From: Rubripirellula reticaptiva
GTDB taxonomy: Bacteria; Planctomycetota; Planctomycetia; Pirellulales; Pirellulaceae
NCBI RefSeq assembly: GCF_007860175.1
Contig: NZ_SJPX01000004.1
Span: forward strand, 843,781-907,780
Length of the DNA: 64,000 bases
Direction: 5' to 3'
A model generated the notes under the pieces. It had not been told where the DNA came from. It worked only from the letters and a program-made list of their open reading frames with translations, and ran no database searches. Positions 1-50,206 of the stretch are shown piece after piece. The position numbers and the translations under genes were made by a program. Numbering within the stretch: position 1 is the first letter of the stretch; the number at the start of each line of letters is the position of its first letter.

Positions 1-88
1 GTTATACCTGTTCCCATTCCGAACACAGCAGTCAAGCTTTGTGAGTCGATGATAGTGCCTACCAGTGCGAAAGTAGATATTGCCAGAT
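1..88 (+). rRNA. rrf: 5S ribosomal RNA, 3' part (5' end outside window)
   Basis: The first bases carry the universal 5S core (the CCATTCCGAACACAG segment at about 15-29) and end with a 3' strand of the terminal helix (TTGCCAGA near 80-87). The 5' part lies left of the window. A strong terminator follows at once, so this is the end of an rRNA transcript. The exact 3' end is estimated to within a few bases. Confidence 0.9.
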
Positions 89-33261: not shown

Positions 33262-33403
33262 TCCGGTGTCGCCCGCCCCAACCTTATCCAGGCTGCGTAA
33301 TTTACCCCGCCCGGGTTTTTCGAATCGGTAAATTCGGGTGGCTACGTTTTCATCGCTTCGGTACAAGACGGCCTGCCCTTTTTTAAATGGATCAGGCGAG
33401 CGG

Positions 33404-35404
33404 ATGAAAAACTTTGGACGTGTTCTAGCGATGGCTGCCCGACGACGTTGGGCGCTGGCTGGCATTTTGGCAACCTCGTTGATGGTGGCGCTCCTTTGGG
33501 GAGCCAATATCGGCGCGATCTACCCGATCGTCGAGGTCGTCTTTGAAGGCAAGTCTTTCCCGGCCTATGCTGCCGAGAAAATCGCCGAGGCTGACAAGAA
33601 TGTCGCCGACCTAGACGTTGAGATCCTGGATCTGGACCAACAGATCATTGCGGCAAGTGGCGACGCAAAAAACCGTTTGCAAGTCCAGCGAGAAAGCCGC
33701 GCGGTCAAGCGAAAAGCGATTTCTGACGGAGTGTATTATCTGTCGATGGCAAAGCCGACAATCGACCGTTTTGCGCCCACCGGGCCGTATCAAACGCTGC
33801 TGTTGGTGATGGGGTTCTTGGTCATTGGCACGATGGTCAAGTTAACCGCGCTGTCGATCAACTTGATGTTGGTCCAGTTCGTATCCGAAAAAACGTCGCT
33901 GGAAATGCGCGCTGGGTTTTTTCGCAAAGCGTTGCACTTGGATCTGGATTCGTTTGGCGAAAATGGATCAGCCGACCTGACGGCCCGATTAACAAACGAT
34001 ATTTCGAATGTGACCGCCGGTTTGACGGTGTTGCTTGGACGAGTGATTCGCGAGCCGTTGAAAATGGCGGTTTGTGTATGCGGCGCCCTGTACGTGTGCC
34101 CGCGGTTGCTATTGCTGGTCATGGTCGTGACACCGCTAGTTGCGTTGGTGATGAATTACCTCAGCAAAGCGATTCGCCGCGCCAGCCGAAAACTGATGGA
34201 AGAAATGAGTCAGTTGTACGGGATGCTGAACGATTCATTCGCTGGCATCCGAGTGGTGAAAGCATTTACGACGCAGGGCTTTGAACGAGCTCGGTTCAAC
34301 ACGGCGACCCAGTCGTTGTATCGCAAGTCGATGAAGATGGCGTTCTACAACACGCTCGCTCGCAGCAGTAGCGAATTGCTGGGCATCTGCACCGTCACGC
34401 TCGCGATCCTTGCTGGCGGTTACTTGGTCGTCAATCAAGAAACACACTTGCTTGGCATTCGAATGAGCAACGTACCGCTAAGCGTTGGCGAAGTACTTAC
34501 GTTCTTTGCCATGTTGATCGGTGCCTCGGATCCCGCCCGGAAATTGTCCGACGTGTGGAGTGGTTTGCAGCGTGGCATCGCAGCGACTGACCGCGTCTAC
34601 GCAATCATGGACAAAGAGGTCCGCGTTAAAGAGCCCGCGTCGCCGTTATCGCCGGCACGTCCCCACGGCGCGATCACCTTCGAAAATGTGGCCTACCAGT
34701 ATCCATCGGGACCGATCGTGCTTCGCGGTGTCGACTTGACGATTCGCCACGGCGAGACGATTGCCGTCGTAGGGCCAAACGGCAGCGGCAAGAGCACGAT
34801 TGTGAACTTGCTTTGCCGATTCGACGATCCTCAGTCGGGCACTGTTTCGATGGATGGTGTGCCGCTGAATCAGATGCGAACTCGCGATCTTCGAAAACGA
34901 ATCGCCCTGGTGACTCAGCGCACCGTTTTGTTCGACGATACGATTGAAAACAACATTCGCTACGGTTGTCCCGGCGCCGATGCCCACGCAGTGGTTCGCG
35001 CGGCCAAAATGGCGTTCGCCGATGACTTCATCCATCGCAAGATGCCGGACGGTTATCAAACCATGTTGGGTACCGGCGGCGGGATGCGATTGTCGGGCGG
35101 TCAAATGCAACGGATCGCATTGGCACGAGCCTTCTTGCGAGACCCGGACATCCTAATTTTGGATGAAGCAACCAGTCAGATCGACTTGGAATCCGAGCAA
35201 CTGATTCATCAGGCTTTGGCCAAATTCTTGGTCGATCGAACAGGCGTCATGATCACCCACCGTCCGACCACTTTGGCGGTCGCTGACCGGATCGTGGTCA
35301 TCGAAGCGGGTGTGGTATCCGACGTCGGCCAGCACAAAGATCTAGTAGAACGAAACCGTTTTTACCAAAGCCTCTGCGGATCTGAGTTCCGCAAAACCGC
35401 CTGA
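33404..35404 (+). CDS. ABC exporter, fused permease-ATPase (MsbA-like)
   Basis: About 666 residues from the ATG at 33404 (frame open to 33338). The N-terminal half has about six membrane spans (type-1 exporter). The C-terminal ATPase has Walker A GPNGSGKST, the signature LSGGQMQRIALARAF, Walker B ILILDEATSQID and switch His in VMITHRPTTLA. An unusual insertion of about 80 residues after the first span (around residues 45-120; AEKIAEADKNVADLDVEILD onward) is charged and probably a coiled coil outside the membrane. Such exporters move lipids, lipid-linked sugars or drugs; the substrate is unknown. It ends shortly before the riboswitch leader. Confidence 0.9.
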   Translation: MKNFGRVLAMAARRRWALAGILATSLMVALLWGANIGAIYPIVEVVFEGKSFPAYAAEKIAEADKNVADLDVEILDLDQQIIAASGDAKNRLQVQRESRAVKRKAISDGVYYLSMAKPTIDRFAPTGPYQTLLLVMGFLVIGTMVKLTALSINLMLVQFVSEKTSLEMRAGFFRKALHLDLDSFGENGSADLTARLTNDISNVTAGLTVLLGRVIREPLKMAVCVCGALYVCPRLLLLVMVVTPLVALVMNYLSKAIRRASRKLMEEMSQLYGMLNDSFAGIRVVKAFTTQGFERARFNTATQSLYRKSMKMAFYNTLARSSSELLGICTVTLAILAGGYLVVNQETHLLGIRMSNVPLSVGEVLTFFAMLIGASDPARKLSDVWSGLQRGIAATDRVYAIMDKEVRVKEPASPLSPARPHGAITFENVAYQYPSGPIVLRGVDLTIRHGETIAVVGPNGSGKSTIVNLLCRFDDPQSGTVSMDGVPLNQMRTRDLRKRIALVTQRTVLFDDTIENNIRYGCPGADAHAVVRAAKMAFADDFIHRKMPDGYQTMLGTGGGMRLSGGQMQRIALARAFLRDPDILILDEATSQIDLESEQLIHQALAKFLVDRTGVMITHRPTTLAVADRIVVIEAGVVSDVGQHKDLVERNRFYQSLCGSEFRKTA

Positions 35405-35476: not shown

Positions 35477-35547
35477 GCCCGCGATCCCTTTTGGCTCGCA
35501 GAATCGAAGGCTTGACGCGGCCGGAATCACCGGTAAGATCGCCAGTG

Positions 35548-35767
35548 TTCGTGGTGACTTGCCCGGTTTTACCGAGCAAGTGAACAGGGAACTCCGGTGA
35601 AATCCCGGGACGGTCCAGCCGCTGTGAACTGCCTTTGGATGTGAAAACATTCAAAACCGACTTACCTATCTCTTGAATTGGCCATTGCTCGGGAATCCGA
35701 GCGAGAAGGCAGGGGAGGTCGATCGGCAGTAAGTCAGAAGACCTACCACGAAATAGACGGTTTCGTG
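35548..35767 (+). promoter_or_regulatory. Cobalamin (B12) riboswitch with switching hairpin
   Basis: Conserved aptamer elements appear in order: AGGGAACTCCGGTGAAATCC (35585-35604), GCCGCTGTGAACTG (35618-35631), and the B12 box AGTCAGAAGACCTACC (35732-35747). The closing helix P1 is a perfect 8 bp (35548-35555 with 35745-35752). The 3' strand of P1 can instead pair with 35761-35767 in a 7-bp hairpin (35747-35753 with 35761-35767). The two are mutually exclusive, which supplies a simple ligand-controlled switch. The first downstream gene starts at 35913. Expected effect: downstream genes are on when B12 is scarce. The aptamer is visible; the direction of control is inferred from the family. Confidence 0.92.
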
Positions 35768-35912
35768 CCCTCTCGGATTGGGGTGATCGTTGCAAAGTCT
35801 CTGCGGCAACTCAGTCAAGTTTGAACCATGCGTTCGTTGCTACGTCTGTCCGCTGCCGAAGCTTTGATTCCCTTTTGCAGATTTCGCGAAGTGATTTCGA
35901 AGGGCTGCATCG

Positions 35913-36719
35913 ATGTTCGGAAAAAGACGCTTGCCAGCGATTCGTGATGCTTTCACGTTGATCGAGTTGTTGGTCGTGATCGCGATCGTGGGTGTCTTGG
36001 TAGGGCTGCTGTTGCCAGCCGTGCAAGCGGCCCGCGAGGCGGCCCGTAAGTCGTCGTGCCAGAACAATCTGAAACAAATTGGATTGGCTCTGCACGCCTA
36101 TCACAATGCCCATCGAACCTTGCCGACCGGATGCATCGAATGGCGAAGCTTCCAGTCACCGCCGACGTTTCGCCAGTACGCTTGGTCAGCAATGCTGCTG
36201 CCGTTCATCGAACAGCAGAGTCTTCATGACCAAATCGATTTCTCCGTGCCGTTCGACGCACCTAAGAATGCAATCGCCGCGGCGACCCGCATCAGTGGGT
36301 TCGAATGCCCGACTGCCCTCGATCGAGCTCTCGTGCGAGGGCAGTCCGACTATGGTGGGCTGTATGGCGAAAAGCTGATGGATCGAAATCCGTCGACCGG
36401 ATTGTTTCTGTACGAGCATGCGATCCGGTTCCGTGATATCACCGACGGACTTTCCCACACCATGGCGATTGCCGAAGATGTGGGTGGTCCGGACAGCGAA
36501 TGGATCAACGGACGCAATGTCTTTGTCCAGTCGCACGGTATCAATGATTCGAACGCATGGATCGGCGACAACGAAATTCGCAGCCTGCATGGCAGCGGTG
36601 CGATGGTGCTGTACATCGACGGTCACGTCCAATTCGTCAACGAAGCAATCGACAAGCGGGTTCTTGGTTCTCTGATCACACGATCAGGACACGAAATTGT
36701 TCCATCGGACGCGTTCTAA
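35913..36719 (+). CDS. DUF1559 prepilin-like protein under B12 riboswitch
   Basis: 268 residues of the planctomycete DUF1559 family. The N-terminus is a prepilin type: DAFTLIELLVVIAIVGVLVGLLLPAVQAAREAAR, with Phe-Thr-Leu-Ile-Glu at the processing site, then SSCQNNLKQIGLALHAYHN. The C-terminus has the usual end HGSGAMVLYIDGHVQFVNE. Such proteins are pseudopilins, thought to act at or across the inner membrane, though single functions are unknown. The ATG at 35913 is the first start after the riboswitch. It is followed by the DUF4465 gene 41 bp downstream, so the two form a riboswitch-controlled operon. Confidence 0.92.
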   Translation: MFGKRRLPAIRDAFTLIELLVVIAIVGVLVGLLLPAVQAAREAARKSSCQNNLKQIGLALHAYHNAHRTLPTGCIEWRSFQSPPTFRQYAWSAMLLPFIEQQSLHDQIDFSVPFDAPKNAIAAATRISGFECPTALDRALVRGQSDYGGLYGEKLMDRNPSTGLFLYEHAIRFRDITDGLSHTMAIAEDVGGPDSEWINGRNVFVQSHGINDSNAWIGDNEIRSLHGSGAMVLYIDGHVQFVNEAIDKRVLGSLITRSGHEIVPSDAF

Positions 36720-36760
36720 ATCTGTTGGCATTTGATATTTGAAACTTCCACGACTACACC

Positions 36761-37684
36761 ATGAAAAAACTAACTCGACTCGCTGCTGCGATTACATTCG
36801 CGGTCGCGCTGACTTCACAAATCGCTAGTGCCGAAACGGTAATTGACTTTGAAGATCTGACTCTCACGCCAGGCAGCTTCTATAACGGTAACACGGGCGT
36901 GACGAACACCGACGGATGGGTGTCTGGTGGCGCAACGTTCAACAACAGCTTCACTCGGGAGCCGACCTATAGCTACTGGTCTGGATGGGCATATTCCAAC
37001 GTTACCAACAGCACGACAACGGGTTTTCAAAACCAATACGCATCATTCGCAGGCGGCGGAGCAACTTCTGATGGAACGGTTGATGTCGGCGGCAAGTACG
37101 CCGTTGCTTCAGGCGGCAACCTATTCGTCAACTTACCGACCAGTACGGTTGCTCGGTCGTTGTGGTTGAACAACACGACCTATGCGGCGCTGGCGATGCG
37201 TGATGGCGCGGACGGCAATAGCGGGATGACAGAGTTCGTGACGGGCGCCTTCGGATCCAAGGAGAGCTACAGCGACATGTTTGGCACATATTCACTTGAT
37301 CCCGACGGGAACGATTTTTTTCGAATCACGTTCAACGGTAAAAGTGGGCTTGATGGCTTGGGTGCCGACACCGGTTCGGTCACTCGCTATTTGGCGGATT
37401 ACCGTGATGATAAGTCCGACAACCCGGACGCTTTGCTGTTTGGTGGTAATGACTATGTCTTGTCCCAGTGGCTTGATGTCGACCTCAGTTCGCTCGGAAA
37501 TGCAAAGTCGTTTTCGGTGTCTTTGGAGTCAACCGATATTGGCCCGTTCGGGGCGAACACGCCATCTTATTTTGCGATCGACAACTTGTCGGTCGCCGCG
37601 GTACCCGAGCCGGCAACTTGGTTGGCACTTGTCTCGGTCAGTGGCGCGGTCGCGATGCGTCGCCGCCGCAAACGGAGTGTTTGA
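36761..37684 (+). CDS. DUF4465-like PEP-CTERM surface protein, likely B12-linked
   Basis: 307 residues. A signal peptide (MKKLTRLAAAITFAVALTSQIASAE) is followed by a domain matching the DUF4465 pattern: IDFEDLTLTPGSFYNG, SYWSGWAYSNVTNSTT, a NNTTYAALAMRDG strand, DFFRITFNGKSG, VTRYLADYRDDKSDNP, SQWLDVDLSSLGNAKSFSVSLES and the terminal YFAIDNLSV. The C-terminus is a PEP-CTERM tail (VPEPA, hydrophobic span, RRRRKRSV). It is second gene behind the cobalamin riboswitch. DUF4465-type proteins occur in corrinoid uptake loci of Bacteroidetes as far as I recall, so a surface corrinoid-binding role is a strong inference, not proof. Confidence 0.85.
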   Translation: MKKLTRLAAAITFAVALTSQIASAETVIDFEDLTLTPGSFYNGNTGVTNTDGWVSGGATFNNSFTREPTYSYWSGWAYSNVTNSTTTGFQNQYASFAGGGATSDGTVDVGGKYAVASGGNLFVNLPTSTVARSLWLNNTTYAALAMRDGADGNSGMTEFVTGAFGSKESYSDMFGTYSLDPDGNDFFRITFNGKSGLDGLGADTGSVTRYLADYRDDKSDNPDALLFGGNDYVLSQWLDVDLSSLGNAKSFSVSLESTDIGPFGANTPSYFAIDNLSVAAVPEPATWLALVSVSGAVAMRRRRKRSV

Positions 37685-38227: not shown

Positions 38228-38530
38228 CTACAAGTATTCGCCGACGGGCAAGACAAAAACTTTTCCGTCACCGATCCGGCCGCTGCGAGCGACGGTGACA
38301 ATCTTTTCTAGGATCTCGTCACACCTCGCATCGTCGACCCAAAGCGTGATTTCGACTTTAGGTACGAACGCCTGAGAGTATTCGGTTTCTTGGTATTCAT
38401 CGAGATAACTCTTTTGGCGTCCATAGCCTTTCACTTCCGTCACGCTGAGCGCTTCGATTGGTGCCAGCCGCAGGCTCTTGAGAACCCTTTCGGCCAGATG
38501 AGGACGGACAATGGTGACGATTTGTTTCAT
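38228..38530 (-). CDS. P-II family regulatory protein (short form)
   Basis: 100 residues with the P-II fold pattern: MKQIVTIVRPHLAERVLKSLRLAPIEALSVTEVKGYGRQK, then a T-loop-like YLDEYQETEYSQAF, VPKVEITLWVDDARCDEIL, and the end GKVFVLPVGEYL. Normal GlnB/GlnK (112) extends a further ten residues (IRTGE...), which are missing. The T-loop Tyr region is altered, so uridylylation is uncertain. It is a cytoplasmic trimeric effector sensor in its family, binding ATP/ADP and 2-oxoglutarate. The next gene (37732-38220) is likely its partner. GlnE, the other nitrogen regulator, lies at 52313. Confidence 0.85.
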   Translation of the reverse strand: MKQIVTIVRPHLAERVLKSLRLAPIEALSVTEVKGYGRQKSYLDEYQETEYSQAFVPKVEITLWVDDARCDEILEKIVTVARSGRIGDGKVFVLPVGEYL

Positions 38531-50131: not shown

Positions 50132-50206
50132 GGTGGAAGACGGGACTCGAACCCGCGACATTCGGTACCACAAACCGACGCTCTAACCAACTGAGCTACA
50201 ACCACC
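50132..50206 (-). tRNA. tRNA-His (GTG)
   Basis: On the minus strand the sequence folds into a full cloverleaf: an extra 5' G (the G-1 of tRNA-His) before GTGGTTG, D arm GCTC...GAGC, anticodon arm TCGGT / TTGTGGT / ACCGA with anticodon GTG, and T arm GCGGG / TTCGAGT / CCCGT. C73 faces G-1 and CCA is not encoded. The acceptor stem has two adjacent U-U mismatches (positions 5-68 and 6-67), which is unusual. It lies 190 bp downstream of the sigma factor gene on the same strand. Confidence 0.93.

Follow-up and report, generated by a model that had tools for sequence, protein, structure and literature searches.

The closest described relatives of the locus analysed here are BtuJ1 and BtuJ2, which are DUF4465 proteins; BtuH1 and BtuH2 are encoded by separate genes (PMC12751083). 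The hydrogen-bonding contacts described for BtuJ1 are Tyr146, Asn241, Thr242 and Tyr245, with Asn241 taken as the BtuJ1 residue, since that report gives the asparagine numbers of BtuJ1 and BtuJ2 in swapped order (PMC12751083). Binding of B12 has been published for DUF4465 proteins, including one from Mucisphaera calidilacus (PMC13398666), a planctomycete (PMC8882080), and surface-sorting tails have already been counted in this family, IPR013424 being assigned to 88 of 824 DUF4465 proteins (PMC12751083). BtuH binds B12 via its C-terminal domain, for which the authors state no known structural homologues (PMC8941943).

The paralogues of DUF1559 (SBP_bac_10, PF07596) form a very large planctomycete family without known function; with a riboswitch pointing to the likely ligand, that function can be tested directly. 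There are 74 DUF1559 genes in Rhodopirellula baltica (PMC2754498) and 68, two of them essential, in Planctopirus limnophila (PMC10632474); the available parts of both reports give no function. Planctopirus limnophila and Gemmata obscuriglobus carry dextran-binding pili-like fibres that are thought to be linked to uptake (PMC5394234). They set a precedent for substrate binding by pili-like fibres in planctomycetes, which might extend to B12; DUF1559 is not mentioned in that report. In a literature search outside which most subscription journals and preprints fell, no paper joined cobalamin riboswitches with planctomycetes, pseudopilins with riboswitches and planctomycetes, or DUF4465 with planctomycetes, and the combination of riboswitch, PEP-CTERM and cobalamin gave nothing related. 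That DUF4465 binds B12 and can carry surface-sorting tails is already known; as far as this search reached, what is new are the riboswitch-linked DUF1559 clades, the operons in which DUF1559 takes the place of a receptor, and the near-exclusion of TonB receptors linked to riboswitches.

The window, a stretch of 64,000 nucleotides from Rubripirellula reticaptiva, contains a single cobalamin riboswitch aptamer, which is also the only RF00174 match in the whole genome (7.85 Mb, 99.9% complete). The aptamer and, behind it, a tightly spaced DUF1559/DUF4465-PEP-CTERM gene pair had been recognised in the earlier note, whose stretch began at 35548, within the RF00174 match; both were recovered with Pfam matches above their cut-offs, a spacer of 41 nt and the same coordinates (Table 1). 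The promoter-like consensus occurs once between 35200 and 38000, compared with 1.2 expected in shuffles. No expression platform was recognised in the leader: no terminator-like site was found there, and the fold of the RNA from 35765 to 35930 is not more stable than shuffles (z 1.58).

Table 1. Features of the window (positions are those of the window).
Feature	Position	Strand	Support
5S rRNA, truncated at the start of the window	1-88	+	38.5 bits, just above the cut-off
Promoter-like site TTGACG-16-TAAGAT (weak), just 5' of the aptamer	35512..35539	+	consensus scan; position the sole support
Cobalamin riboswitch aptamer RF00174	35535..35764	+	cmscan, 74.4 bits (gathering threshold 31.5), E 1.8e-16; full model, positions 1-189 of 189
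Leader, aptamer to DUF1559 gene	35765..35912	+	no expression platform found
DUF1559 (PF07596) prepilin-like protein, 268 aa	35913..36719	+	PF07596 E 6.5e-53
DUF4465 (PF14717) BtuJ-like protein, 307 aa; hydrophobic helix at the N-terminus, PEP-CTERM tail	36761..37684	+	PF14717 E 2.3e-37, residues 69-276; 129.5 bits (curated cut-off 25)
Tyr141 codon, equivalent of BtuJ1 Tyr146 (DE loop)	37181..37183	+	alignment with 9fct
Asn266-Thr267-Pro268-Ser269-Tyr270 codons, HI-loop motif NTPSY	37556..37570	+	alignment with 9fct
PEP-CTERM sorting signal, residues 280-303	37598..37669	+	PF07589 E 1.1e-4, 22.5 bits (cut-off 20.7)
P-II nitrogen regulatory protein, shortly behind the gene pair, opposite strand	38228-38530	-	PF00543 E 3.9e-19
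tRNA gene	50132-50205	-	

The DUF4465 protein is the only member of its family in the source genome, and its model has the augmented jelly-roll fold of DUF4465/BtuJ proteins. In the alignment with 9fct, Asn266, Thr267 and Tyr270 correspond to BtuJ1 Asn241, Thr242 and Tyr245, so that, together with Tyr141, all four hydrogen-bonding residues of BtuJ are conserved. Corrinoid capture by this protein is a well-supported prediction from homology in sequence and model. The C-terminus comprises a PEP motif, a hydrophobic stretch and a basic end, the hallmarks of PEP-CTERM, which we take to be the entity designated IPR013424; exosortase (PF09721) has four matches in the source genome (best E 1.7e-52) and was found in 112 of the 149 Pirellulaceae genomes. 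The earlier note's proposal of a riboswitch in front of a surface-displayed corrinoid binder agrees with this combination of RF00174, PF14717 and PEP-CTERM, which makes the protein a probable surface-sorted corrinoid binder. The Bacteroidetes relative named in that note, BtuH, has to be replaced by BtuJ; the sequence and the model place the protein in the BtuJ/DUF4465 family. The fold, the four contact residues and the riboswitch-controlled locus are shared with BtuJ1, BtuJ2 and other DUF4465 (IPR027828) binders (PMC12751083, PMC13398666), but, in contrast to BtuJ1 and BtuJ2, the protein carries a PEP-CTERM tail instead of a lipid anchor, and its partner is a DUF1559 pseudopilin, with no BtuB, BtuG or BtuH beside it.

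The DUF1559 protein shares with other planctomycete members of the family a full profile match and a prepilin N-terminus (N-methylation motif, E 7.5e-6), and ends in the H-X9-DG C-terminus (H-X9-DG-CTERM, 24.5 bits against a cut-off of 19). Unlike the other paralogues, it belongs to one of the riboswitch-linked clades, which have conserved residues of their own: G73, G148, G149, E153, R154, I198, N202 and Q206, among others, are at least 90% conserved in DUF4465-linked DUF1559 and rare in the genome's own paralogues, the closest of which is 45% identical. The N-terminal pilin helix is the sole recognisable structural part. The idea that the head is a known ligand-binding fold was dropped, since fold searches matched pilins only, a result that leaves room for a ligand-binding fold.

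We propose, with a probability of about 60%, that this is a B12-repressed capture locus in which a B12-dedicated DUF1559 (pseudo)pilin acts in the same outer-envelope step as the DUF4465 protein. The proposal builds on what the tools report directly, namely the aptamer, the conserved gene order, the BtuJ-like fold and contacts, the riboswitch-tied DUF1559 clades and the genome content. At low cobalamin, the riboswitch would permit expression of both genes; after export, the PEP-CTERM tail would probably direct the DUF4465 protein to the outer surface, where it would bind corrinoids in a BtuJ-like pocket. DUF1559, processed like a prepilin, would most likely present the loaded corrinoid or pull it towards the periplasm, a step served by BtuB and TonB in other bacteria. 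A part of DUF1559 in B12 transport, to which we give a little under even odds, is suggested by its gene company, by operons that begin with DUF1559 and continue to BtuF and a permease, and by the dextran-fibre precedent. The earlier note had cast the pseudopilin as a possible carrier; the riboswitch-linked DUF1559 clades lend support to this conjectural role.

The gene arrangement is more than chance. DUF4465 is encoded in 59 of the 149 Pirellulaceae genomes, at 64 loci, and RF00174 lies 5' of it on the same strand at 61 of these. The first search, which listed the best 150 matches under the stricter filters of large searches, provided 46, and a rescan of the 18 loci without a listed match added 15; the exceptions are one locus where the contig begins just 5' of the gene (L120) and two where none was found (L122, L126). 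The order riboswitch-DUF1559-DUF4465 is present at 50 of the 64 loci, in line with the co-occurrence in Pirellulaceae that the earlier note had proposed to check. At 11 loci the riboswitch directly precedes DUF4465, and two of these (L092, L097) have a DUF1559 of the same clade 3' of DUF4465. PEP-CTERM-like tails are found at 42 of the 64 loci. At 17 loci, the gene encodes two or three DUF4465 domains, in proteins mostly of 1500-2040 aa; one such gene (L070) is split into two frames by masked sequence, and the only giant that was scanned (L109) combines three DUF4465 domains with a dockerin and a Planc_extracel match below its cut-off. The alignment of DUF4465 references holds 42 of the 43 single-domain matches and none of the 31 longer ones, and that of DUF1559 references holds 44 of 71. 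The ABC transporter immediately upstream (33338-35404) was discarded as a partner, because a search of the sequence retrieved around the other 63 loci gave nothing at E <= 1e-30.

In a sample of the phylum, DUF4465 was found in 11 of 392 genomes. Outside Pirellulaceae, the riboswitch precedes DUF4465 at nine of ten loci, the tenth (L204) lying at a contig start. At three of the ten (L196, L199, L203), DUF4465 is followed by a prepilin-type protein that scores below the DUF1559 cut-off, so that the pairing of a pseudopilin with DUF4465 recurs in distant lineages; at the other seven, no same-strand prepilin-type neighbour of DUF4465 was seen, although in L201 a DUF1559 is encoded on the other strand.

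The association also emerges from the protein side. A search with DUF1559 patterns alone, with no riboswitch input, gave 80 loci (the best 80 of 129) from organisms that include Rhodopirellula europaea, R. rubra, R. maiorica, R. sallentina, R. solitaria, Stieleria sedimenti, Roseiconus nitratireducens, Roseimaritima sediminicola, Neorhodopirellula pilleata and Aeoliella straminimaris, a set that partly overlaps the 149 Pirellulaceae genomes. Among these best 80 of 129, 77 have an upstream cobalamin riboswitch: a B12-box pattern within 1.5 kb identified 64, and cmscan recovered 13 at 14 further loci; two of the remaining loci are cut off upstream (L223, L233), and in L290 none was found. The pattern recovers 59 of 61 known riboswitches with 0.4 false matches expected, and cmscan confirmed all 14 pattern-positive loci from records not titled MAG. 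DUF4465 adjoins DUF1559 at 73 of the same best 80 loci (71 behind, two in front); it is missing from L233, L237, L243, L290 and L272, the last with a different PEP-CTERM protein behind DUF1559, and from L244 and L286, which lie near contig ends. Because the query alignment was built from riboswitch-linked DUF1559 proteins, the result means that this type of protein predicts a riboswitch and does not extend to DUF1559 at large.

A tree of the quick kind with 109 DUF1559 rows (51 DUF4465-linked, 19 riboswitch-linked without DUF4465, 29 sampled paralogues of the source genome and 10 others) places all 51 DUF4465-linked proteins in one clade of 58 (SH-aLRT 96). The rest of this clade consists of four riboswitch-linked proteins without DUF4465, the two downstream ones of L092 and L097, and one own paralogue (L167) that may be misplaced, given its branch of 2.83. 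The remaining 15 riboswitch-linked proteins without DUF4465 form two more clades of 10 and five rows, the former well supported (L128, L131, L133, L135, L136, L137, L140, L141, L156, L159). Among the best 150 riboswitches listed, 104 are without DUF4465; 36 of these, picked for spread and not at random, were inspected, and at 19 of the 36 a DUF1559 gene ends within 2 kb. With 65 DUF1559 matches in the source genome (the query itself and some split pieces counted), a member of such an abundant family could by accident stand behind a riboswitch, yet only about 0.0017 DUF1559 starts per riboswitch are expected in the 400 nt that follow it, compared with 50 of the 64 DUF4465 loci and 19 of the 36 others inspected. 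The linked genes also cluster on the tree, and the conserved order (61 and 50 of 64) further disfavours chance neighbourhood, which we consider scarcely credible.

Four loci without DUF4465 (L129, L130, L138, L147) share the order riboswitch, DUF1559, CbiP, BtuR, CobU, BtuF and FecCD permease, the genes having been identified by Pfam in L130 and L138 and by similarity to L130 in L129 and L147. A fifth (L131) has DUF1559, CbiP, BtuR and later CobU, and in a sixth (L132) the contig is cut after CbiP. Standing first in these operons for B12 salvage and uptake, DUF1559 occupies a position at which one might expect a receptor. A plug-domain match is absent from five of the six genomes; among all 19 genomes with riboswitch-DUF1559 and no DUF4465 there, 13 are plug-less, and the listed riboswitch-linked TonB receptors include none from this group.

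These operons bear on whether DUF1559 is instead an export helper, a dedicated pseudopilin for the exit of the DUF4465 protein with no role in B12 import. Type II secretion is driven by pseudopilins, the DUF1559 and DUF4465 genes are tightly paired, and DUF1559 proteins of the same clade also stand beside other PEP-CTERM proteins (L127, L157, L162). This explanation does not account for riboswitch-linked DUF1559 genes that have no sorted protein behind them, either those before CbiP, BtuR, CobU, BtuF and FecCD or at least two of the 10-row clade (L128, L135) that precede genes without an evident B12 link, for example those of a trypsin-like protease and a Na/Ca exchanger; these DUF1559 proteins sit in other clades. 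We regard the export helper as the less likely though still credible explanation and prefer the capture locus with a B12-dedicated DUF1559 (pseudo)pilin.

The source genome encodes two B12-dependent enzymes, MetH and methylmalonyl-CoA mutase, and lacks CbiC, the sole de novo gene searched, which was found in 2 of the 149 genomes. There is no TonB-dependent receptor at the locus, which is on contig C4; the only one in the genome, by a single plug-domain match, is on contig C2, is not riboswitch-linked and resembles riboswitch-linked receptors mainly over some 110 residues at 40% identity. BtuB/TonB-dependent uptake is, like the locus, under cobalamin riboswitches in relatives: a riboswitch-linked TonB receptor is present in at least 34 of the 149 genomes, a lower bound because linkage was tested on the 63 best plug matches and on another 31 from the list that belong to DUF4465 genomes, of which none proved linked. 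Only 2 of these 34 genomes (G114, G140) also have DUF4465, compared with 57 of the 115 others (Fisher p 1.8e-6, kinship ignored); by genus, with the names transcribed by hand, the exclusion is weaker, 3 of 19 against 22 of 49 (p 0.029). Apart from regulation, the two systems differ, in that the locus has no TonB receptor and DUF1559 opens B12 operons in some relatives. The distinction from BtuB-type uptake drawn in the earlier note is consistent with this genome content.

The locus might alternatively store, sequester or share B12 outside the cell, with no feed across the envelope. BtuJ1 and BtuJ2 carry cobalamin on Bacteroides vesicles (PMC12751083), and the frequent PEP-CTERM-like tails and the 17 large multi-DUF4465 proteins of relatives would suit such a role, but acquisition is indicated by the uptake operons that start with DUF1559 and by the rarity of DUF4465 in genomes with a riboswitch-linked BtuB, in a cell that needs B12 and is without CbiC. 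Storage or sharing is accordingly improbable next to the preferred reading, a B12-repressed capture locus.

Two other lines of genome content were set aside. Plug-less genomes are not clearly enriched among those with DUF4465 (27 of 59, compared with 35 of 90 without DUF4465), some of the plug-less genomes being incomplete (for example, G128 at 78% and G139 at 83%). The missing BtuC was dropped as special evidence: FecCD matches in the source genome are weak (best E 6.6e-7), and matches above 190 bits occur in 25 of the 149 genomes, 14 of the 59 with DUF4465 and 4 of the 34 with a riboswitch-linked TonB receptor. Since a BtuC-type permease is missing from 30 of these 34 riboswitch-BtuB genomes as well, an inner-membrane route of another kind would not be special to the locus. 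The 11 loci where DUF1559 does not intervene, the DUF1559 head, in which no known ligand-binding fold was recognised, and the one TonB receptor of the source genome likewise weigh against the proposal.

The locus suggests a way in which B12 may be collected by bacteria that lack its usual receptor, and bears on how B12 crosses the outer membrane in B12-needing bacteria that have neither CbiC nor a plug domain (27 of the 59 DUF4465 genomes, MetH being present in 26 of the 27). More tentatively, and in our view somewhat unlikely, a dedicated DUF1559 (pseudo)pilin could take corrinoids from surface-sorted binders across the outer membrane by a TonB-independent route, with the many paralogues acting as substrate-specific capture pilins. 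If this were true, the riboswitch-linked DUF1559 proteins would be the first capture pilins with a substrate readable from the genome.

Several other genes follow these riboswitches. In the Pirellulaceae loci L139, L143 and L144, they precede a ribonucleotide reductase large chain, a cobalamin-independent methionine synthase and a TonB receptor. The position of DUF4465 behind riboswitch and DUF1559 is taken by a different PEP-CTERM protein in L127 (5114-5854, -), L162 (5334-5948, -), L157 (3774-5108, +) and L272 (1240-2295, +); these proteins may be further surface B12 modules, and PDB sequence matches of the L127 protein reach E 0.02 only. A second family, with a DFAVFEN motif and no Pfam family, also recurs in B12 loci, and 11 of its sequences align. 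The 'FENGF' protein of L075 has no PDB sequence match at E <= 1, and the family's only hint is a weak match to LIC_13355 lipoprotein (E 0.0011). Its members lie between the riboswitch and DUF1559 in L075 (8701-9720, -), L077, L090 and L095 and beside DUF4465 in L196, L197, L199, L203 and L204, and are either separate proteins that end in PEP-CTERM or a dockerin or, in L109, the N-terminal part of the giant multi-DUF4465 protein.
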